Source of the DNA: Halobium salinum
Lineage (GTDB): Archaea; Halobacteriota; Halobacteria; Halobacteriales; Haloferacaceae
Length of the DNA stretch: 64,000 nucleotides
Direction of reading: 5' to 3'
Assembly: GCF_026586625.1 (NCBI RefSeq)
Contig: NZ_JAODIW010000006.1
Location: forward strand, 1,215,061 to 1,279,060
In this document: positions 36,284-36,900 of the stretch, piece after piece
Layout: each line of letters begins with the position of its first letter
Numbering within the stretch: the first letter of the stretch is position 1
Program-made: the position numbers and the translations under genes
Notes under the pieces: generated by a model
Seen by the model: only the letters and a program-made list of their open reading frames with translations
Database searches by the model: none
Told to the model about the DNA's origin: nothing

Positions 36284-36301
36284 GTCGTCTTTCGAGCGAG
36301 C

Positions 36302-36323
36302 CGGTGGGACTGGGATTTGAACC
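36302..36323 (-). repeat. tRNA-Ser 3'-tail copy 1
   Basis: 22 bases identical to the discriminator, 3' acceptor strand and T-arm of the intact tRNA-Ser at 36765-36786. On the plus strand it begins CGGTGGGACTGG and ends TTTGAACC. It is followed by an 8-base insert absent from copies 2 and 3, then ACGGTCG as in those copies. Confidence 0.9.
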
Positions 36324-36446
36324 GGAGCCAGACGGTCGCGCTCACTTCGTTCGCGCGCTGCGACTGGCAGGGTTAAAATCGCCAGTACATTCCTCTCAGC
36401 ACGGCAGGGTGGCTCGCTGCGCTCGCCACGTACTGTCGCGCAGAAC

Positions 36447-36468
36447 CGGTGGGACTGGGATTTGAACC
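36447..36468 (-). repeat. tRNA-Ser 3'-tail copy 2
   Basis: The same 22 bases as copy 1 and the intact tRNA. It continues directly into ACGGTCG, shared with copy 3. Confidence 0.9.
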
Positions 36469-36632
36469 ACGGTCGCGCTGCTCACTTCGTTCGCGACGCT
36501 CCTTGATTCAAGTCCCCGCGGCACCTTCGATTCGGCGCCGGCGACTCGCTGCGTCGCCGTCGGCCTCGCCCGCCGGCCTCCAGCGGGACGGCGTCGCCGT
36601 CCCGCACGGCTCGTCGCGTAGCGCCTCGAAAA

Positions 36633-36654
36633 CGGTGGGACTGGGATTTGAACC
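36633..36654 (-). repeat. tRNA-Ser 3'-tail copy 3
   Basis: The same 22 bases as copies 1 and 2, followed by ACGGTCG. Its partner T-arm-like inversion (GGTTCAAATCACCAG) is the best preserved of the three. Confidence 0.9.
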
Positions 36655-36764
36655 ACGGTCGTTCCGCTCGCTGCGCTCGCTACACTCTCCGGTTCAAATC
36701 ACCAGCCGATACCTCGCACGCGCCGCTGGCGGCTCACTTCGTTCGCCGCGGAGCGGCGCTGAGA

Positions 36765-36848
36765 CGGTGGGACTGGGATTTGAACCCAGGAAGCCGAAAG
36801 GCTACCTGCTTTCAAGGCAGGCGCAATAGGCCACTCTGCCATCCCACC
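36765..36848 (-). tRNA. tRNA-Ser (anticodon TGA)
   Basis: 84 bases with all parts of a class II tRNA. The acceptor GGTGGGA pairs with TCCCACC, with discriminator G73. The D-arm is GCAGAGTGGCC. The anticodon stem CCTGC/GCAGG encloses CTTGAAA, so the anticodon is TGA. A long variable arm GCCTTTCGGC follows, then the T-stem CTGGG/CCCAG with loop TTCAAAT. The CCA end is not encoded. The gene is intact; three copies of its 3' tail lie downstream. Confidence 0.96.
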
Positions 36849-36900
36849 GCGTCTCCGTGTACCGATGGGTCGGCCAAATGCCTACCGGTCGTCCCTCGGT

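Follow-up and report, generated by a model that had tools for sequence, protein, structure and literature searches.

Structured repeat units carrying copies of adjacent tRNA 3' tails in Halobium salinum and other Halobacteria

The repeats that follow the tRNA-Ser(TGA) gene of Halobium salinum are best explained as one member of a Halobacteria-wide family of cassettes anchored to tRNA genes. The common build is an H1 hairpin, an element that we call invT (the complement of the T-loop and the 3' T-stem strand of the unit's own tRNA), a core hairpin with tandem G.A pairs and, finally, the tail of the adjacent tRNA. Across 99 genome or locus groups, 209 units keep the order of H1, invT and core.

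The tRNA-Ser(TGA) array and its fold

In the window (the whole 64,000-nucleotide stretch of DNA that was analyzed), three units lie downstream of the tRNA-Ser(TGA) gene, and each closes with a perfect copy of the 22-nt tRNA tail (Table 1). This 22-mer (CGGTGGGACTGGGATTTGAACC; minus strand GGTTCAAATCCCAGTCCCACCG) takes in the final two bases of the 5' T-stem strand, then the T-loop, the 3' T-stem strand, the acceptor 3' strand and the discriminator; the 5' T-stem strand (49-51) is absent from the copies. Exact matches in the 4.46-Mb genome are limited to these four sites, the next-best site has three mismatches, and the reversed control of the genome gave no match. The exact search thus confirms the three perfect 22-base tails, downstream of the tRNA and in its orientation, that a preliminary description of this DNA had reported. 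That description also assigned the acceptor strand, the discriminator and the T-arm to the tail; the first two stand, but the whole T-arm does not, since only the T-loop and the 3' T-stem strand are copied in full. The order that it gave for each unit (hairpin, inverted T-arm-like sequence, second hairpin) holds in all three, with the tail following as the last part.

Table 1. Positions of the tRNA-Ser(TGA) gene and of the parts of its three downstream units in the window
Feature	Position	Strand	Remarks
tRNA-Ser(TGA), anchor gene	36765..36849	-	tail (T-loop to N73) = 36765-36786
Unit 1 (132 nt)	36633..36764	-	type A core
H1 hairpin of unit 1 (GCGCCGCT..GCGGCGAACGAAGTGAGCCGC..AGCGGCGC)	36720..36759	-	
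invT of unit 1 (GATTTGAACC)	36691..36700	-	complement of T-loop and T-stem 3' strand
Type A core of unit 1 (GGAGAGTGTAGCGAGCGCAGCGAGCGGAACGACCGT)	36655..36690	-	
Tail copy 1	36633..36654	-	22/22 identity to tRNA
Unit 2 (186 nt)	36447..36632	-	type A core, H1 region enlarged
invT of unit 2 (GACTTGAATC)	36505..36514	-	
Tail copy 2	36447..36468	-	22/22 identity to tRNA
Unit 3 (145 nt)	36302..36446	-	type B core (CTGCCAGTCGCAGC..GACCGTCTGGCTCC)
invT of unit 3 (GATTTTAACC)	36371..36380	-	
Tail copy 3	36302..36323	-	22/22 identity to tRNA

When compared with dinucleotide shuffles, the three units fold better as RNA (z = -3.6, -2.8 and -3.2). With Rfam 15 at the gathering score, the tRNA itself was the sole match in the window, leaving the units without a match. 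Hairpins with tandem G.A pairs (GCGAACGAAGTGAGC and GCGAGCGAAGCGAGC) recur throughout the units, both at 36447-36632 of the window and at many haloarchaeal loci.

Across the larger collection, invT follows the tRNA that it adjoins. At position 57 its match to its own tail is 0.89 versus 0.49 for the tails of other tRNAs, and at positions 62-65 the values are 0.78, 0.60, 0.48 and 0.49 versus 0.45, 0.36, 0.25 and 0.34. Matching drops to background level at 66-73: the tail includes the acceptor strand and discriminator, but these bases usually stay unpaired. We rejected acceptor-stem mimicry by the 5' part of the unit, because with all units taken together this part pairs with the acceptor strand (66-73) no more than background; some pairing of this kind does occur in the window units and a few others.

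There are at least three core types (A, B and C), each always located between invT and the T sequence. Type A has two constant tandem GA/GA mismatches, and the two-base-pair step between them switches from GC/GC to GT/AC, with U-A in place of G-C. This step is complementary in 88 of 98 cores (shuffles: mean 44, maximum 57), and the first GA of the tandem is kept in 98 of 106. In nine tRNA-Val units from Halobacteria, H1 shows double changes at 5 of its 11 pairs, and the covariation score of the whole structure in the Val units was reached by none of 500 shuffles and by no slid control. Many units have a pyrimidine run directly past N73, and 91 of 209 have a G53.U wobble. Half-changes in the invT:T stem are equally divided (114 G.T versus 109 A.C) and therefore do not inform on a strand preference, RNA or single-stranded DNA, of that stem. 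In a sampling biased to type A, cores of one genome resemble each other only a little more than cores from different genomes at the same tRNA do, and H1 goes with the tRNA; these comparisons do not demonstrate spread of units between tRNA types.

Units at other tRNA genes and across the class

A search of the H. salinum genome with the Ser array returned 29 places, several of them 3' of other tRNAs and carrying the tails of those tRNAs. We fetched all of the tRNA loci, took the units from genome stretches and scored 45 tRNAs, counting as a tail copy any site within 1 kb of the tRNA with at most 5 mismatches in 22. Copies of the gene's own tail lie downstream of 23 of the 45 tRNA genes (one to three each, 33 in total), compared with about 0.01 expected genome-wide, by simple probability, for 22-mers of this stringency near a tRNA. 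Upstream there are two, both owed to an adjacent tandem duplicate of tRNA-Asp, and no antisense copies were found near the 45 scored genes. For 30 of 32 units in this genome, the unit's own tRNA was the best or equal-best match among the 45 tails (T-stem/acceptor part compared). Displaced or decayed units occur at further tRNAs, namely tRNA-Arg (L018 and C2), tRNA-Trp (L058) and tRNA-Val (L029). About half of the tRNAs in this genome have no unit, so units are dispensable. Two 3'-half copies of tRNA-Met (L057; C13, around 622.7 and 626.4 kb) are each followed by a unit in which H1 pairing is kept through changes on both sides, and these units remain folded although no complete tRNA stands upstream. 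A frame that resembles PemK/MazF by eye lies near one of the half copies.

The preliminary description proposed searching for the combination of tail, hairpin and inverted T-arm near other haloarchaeal tRNAs. That search succeeds class-wide and well beyond tRNA-Ser, in line with its suspicion of a small tRNA-derived element. Using a pattern of the core end plus T-loop (GARCGACCGTGGTTCRAATC, one mismatch allowed), we found matches in 255 of the 392 Halobacteria genomes, representing 71 of 86 genera; the reversed pattern had none among the Halobacteria genomes, and about 310 genomes from other classes of the phylum had none. A scan of named genomes placed loci in dozens of genera, including Natrialba, Natrinema, Haloarcula, Haloferax (one unit in Haloferax sulfurifontis, L124), Halorubrum and Halomarina. 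Nearly all of the 80 named matches follow a tRNA on the same strand at a distance of 70-330 nt, with 0-5 mismatches to its tail; the exceptions are a few at contig or locus ends or without a recognized tRNA. Two bacterial matches, with no tRNA beside them, were dismissed as chance. The core pattern had no match in IMG/VR viral contigs or in phages and two weak ones in plasmids, and we rejected a viral or plasmid origin on these grounds; tRNA tails that do occur in viral contigs are unrelated to the units.

The 209 units cover 35 tRNA types, and the tail carried is that of whichever tRNA precedes the unit, with perfect identity over 20 nt in 123 of 209. Units of the family are non-coding, with an overall length of 70-260 nt and most of them about 75-200 nt. 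At orthologous tRNAs, units persist across genera.

Gain and loss of units and the explanations weighed

Unit number varies among genomes, and several arrays consist of near-identical repeats: four identical 111-bp units at tRNA-Lys (L187 in G038), three 108-bp units with one base different (L188 in G168) and an A-B-A-B' array (L189 in G058). At tRNA-Ser(TGA), 30 genomes of the family have between zero and three units. Within one genus, an empty site (L223) can be compared with an occupied one (L216), placing the junction at the tail: the post-tRNA flank of the former (ACTTCyCTCGACTC..CGTCTCGGTC) is the sequence found past the unit's tail in the latter. Distal units have more tail mismatches than first units (mean 1.55 versus 0.94), which is compatible with, but not proof of, newer units being added proximal to the tRNA. 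Two kinds of tRNA remnant were also encountered. A degenerate tRNA-Leu copy lies within a repeated unit array behind tRNA-Leu(CAA) (L196, G075:C2:151000-152500), and fragments of the first 61 bases of tRNA-Ser are present about 10-12 kb from the complete gene (G048:C2:74720 and G275:C17:205797), suggesting elements that left the 5' part behind.

We tentatively favor, at a little short of an even chance, a tRNA-anchored non-coding recombination cassette that would have a selected single-strand fold, in either single-stranded DNA or RNA, and be served by a putative recombinase. The shared anatomy, matching to the own tail, the class-wide range, covariation of the arms, gain, loss and tandem amplification with junctions at the tail and the lack of an integrase inside all argue for it. 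Cassettes would enter, leave and multiply by recombination between a tail copy and the tRNA's own tail, and any exchange within the shared T-loop would restore the tRNA; we propose that this need is the reason why the identity begins at the T-loop and ends at N73. In the folded strand the invT:T duplex would copy the target sequence of the tRNA, and a recombinase acting in trans might recognize that strand, much as the attC hairpin of an integron is brought together with a double-stranded attI. Tandem copies may then arise by homologous recombination between tails, which would also keep the tails homogeneous. Against such a cassette, units persist at orthologous tRNAs across genera, unlike a freely moving element, and are absent from viral contigs and phages and almost absent from plasmids; neither a circular form nor an excision product was seen. 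Also against it stand the core and H1 comparisons, with no demonstrated spread between tRNA types, and the equal G.T and A.C half-changes, which show no one-strand constraint in the invT:T stem.

The main rival is a functional RNA, and the preliminary description had likewise named a processed RNA; we consider such an account possible but on balance unlikely. The unit would be a trailer made by read-through of the tRNA, with H1 and the invT:T hairpin acting as terminator, processing signal or regulator, or else as a mask keeping the tail copy from pairing with the 5' strands of the tRNA. The folding z-scores of -2.8 to -3.6, the covariation of core and H1, the frequent G53.U wobble and the pyrimidine run past N73 all suit an RNA. 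It fits less well that the acceptor strand and discriminator are conserved while usually unpaired, and that units behind half-tRNA copies stay folded with no complete tRNA upstream. Because units are dispensable and change in presence, with roughly half of the tRNAs free of them and close relatives gaining or losing them, a general role in tRNA maturation is disfavored. Neutral DNA dynamics, in which tandem duplication, gene conversion of tails with the tRNA and template switching that perfects quasi-palindromic hairpins suffice, would account for the perfect tandem copies, the loss of units at tails and the recurrence of similar short hairpins in many units. We find this improbable: quasi-palindrome correction should erase tandem G.A mismatches, which instead are constant (98 of 106 cores) while the adjoining pairs covary, and either a common origin or selection has to be assumed for cores that many tRNA types and dozens of genomes share. 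The preliminary description had read the exact tails as a sign of selection or gene conversion, and this is supported.

Its other suggestion was that the array is a series of integration scars. In favor of such scars, left one after another by ordinary tyrosine-integrase elements, the tails span the classical att region at the tRNA 3' end, and integrase elements are present at some tRNAs of this genome, which has nine matches to the phage integrase family (PF00589). No unit contains any of the integrase genes found, nor do 70-260 nt leave room for one. At L018 (G000:C11:551063-557137), tRNA-Arg and an exact tail enclose a decayed 2.1-kb element that has a reading frame resembling an integrase by eye; a unit lies beyond that tail. 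At the C2 tRNA-Arg (291.8 kb; L032, L186), an integrase gene adjoins an attR-like end at 323.6 kb and a unit follows immediately beyond that end; the stretch from about 291.8 to 323.7 kb is probably a 32-kb element integrated in tRNA-Arg. Both elements entered at the tRNA and displaced an older unit outward, so that the unit beyond attR is older flank. Scars of different elements should have unrelated spacers; unit spacers instead share one anatomy across the class, and the core pattern is missing from viral contigs. These observations contradict att scars, which we regard as a very improbable source of the array. The preliminary description was right in its reservation that plain scars should not bring with them a conserved inverted T-arm and paired hairpins, and the integrase elements at the two tRNA-Arg genes differ in build from the units. 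Tails serving as decoy attachment sites that shield the tRNA from integrases would likewise explain why a preferred target is copied exactly, but are hardly credible: at both loci that have an integrase element and a unit, the element entered the tRNA itself.

Comparison with known repeats and significance

Integron cassettes are non-autonomous and stand head-to-tail in one orientation at one anchor, and their attC sites work as one folded DNA strand in which the core sites are inverted and an extrahelical base is conserved. The haloarchaeal units have a similar anatomy, head-to-tail in one orientation at one anchor and with a predicted fold that may present inverted core sites and an extrahelical base in the manner of attC, a likeness of build only; unlike integrons, they have no gene cassette, a tRNA gene serves as their anchor and their tail is specific to that tRNA. 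REP/BIME sequences are short intergenic hairpin repeats, as the units are, and are associated with RAYT, a Y1 transposase; the units differ in being tied to tRNAs, and a search of the H. salinum genome for the Y1 (TnpA) transposase (PF01797) found none, while the Haloferax volcanii control had it. For this reason mobilization of the IS200/IS605 kind was rejected as well.

Scars of tyrosine integrases, as described in PMC8371274, are direct repeats from inside a tRNA to its 3' end that keep the tRNA intact. The direct repeat of the units also runs to the 3' end with an intact tRNA always kept, but there is no integrase or element DNA between the repeats, and the conserved two-hairpin build with invT, the tails for many tRNA types and the vertical retention set them apart. 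PATEs and SMRs of Haloquadratum are, in PMC3119063, short (SMR-A about 110 bp), non-coding and palindrome-bearing, with no target duplication described there. Like the IS605-derived PATEs, the units have palindromes near their ends and no coding gene; unlike PATEs and SMRs, they occur only beside tRNAs, in fixed orientation, and end in the host tRNA's tail. The dispersed insertion of PATEs is not seen, since unit matches sit behind tRNAs or tRNA fragments. In comparison with MITEs and SMRs, the units do have inverted repeats in invT and T, yet these leave H1 and the acceptor tail on the outside and are not terminal, and copies are again confined to the vicinity of tRNAs.

The units lack one or more of the defining features of att scars, of PATE/IS605, of MITE/SMR and of Rfam families, and look like a new kind of tRNA-bound repeat cassette. 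Such a family was not found in the databases and open-access literature searched, PMC8371274, PMC3119063, PMC7237163 and PMC2841640 among the latter; an earlier account in the subscription literature is possible. By analogy with integrons, the units might belong to an undescribed archaeal system anchored on the tRNA set of the whole class. Its recombinase would read a folded single strand, in which invT is paired to the T-loop/T-stem copy, and place non-coding cassettes head-to-tail at the T-loops of tRNAs. We hold this idea to be rather doubtful.

The result is a structured repeat family, tied to tRNAs across an archaeal class, that fits no family tested here and poses the question of how a repeat keeps in step with dozens of different tRNAs. 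A tail downstream of a haloarchaeal tRNA should not be taken for an att scar as a matter of course, a caution that bears on where the borders of proviruses and integrated elements are drawn. Genetic work is feasible in haloarchaeal models, Haloferax among them, and the units open to test a possible new route for copying and moving tRNA 3' ends and for keeping them identical.
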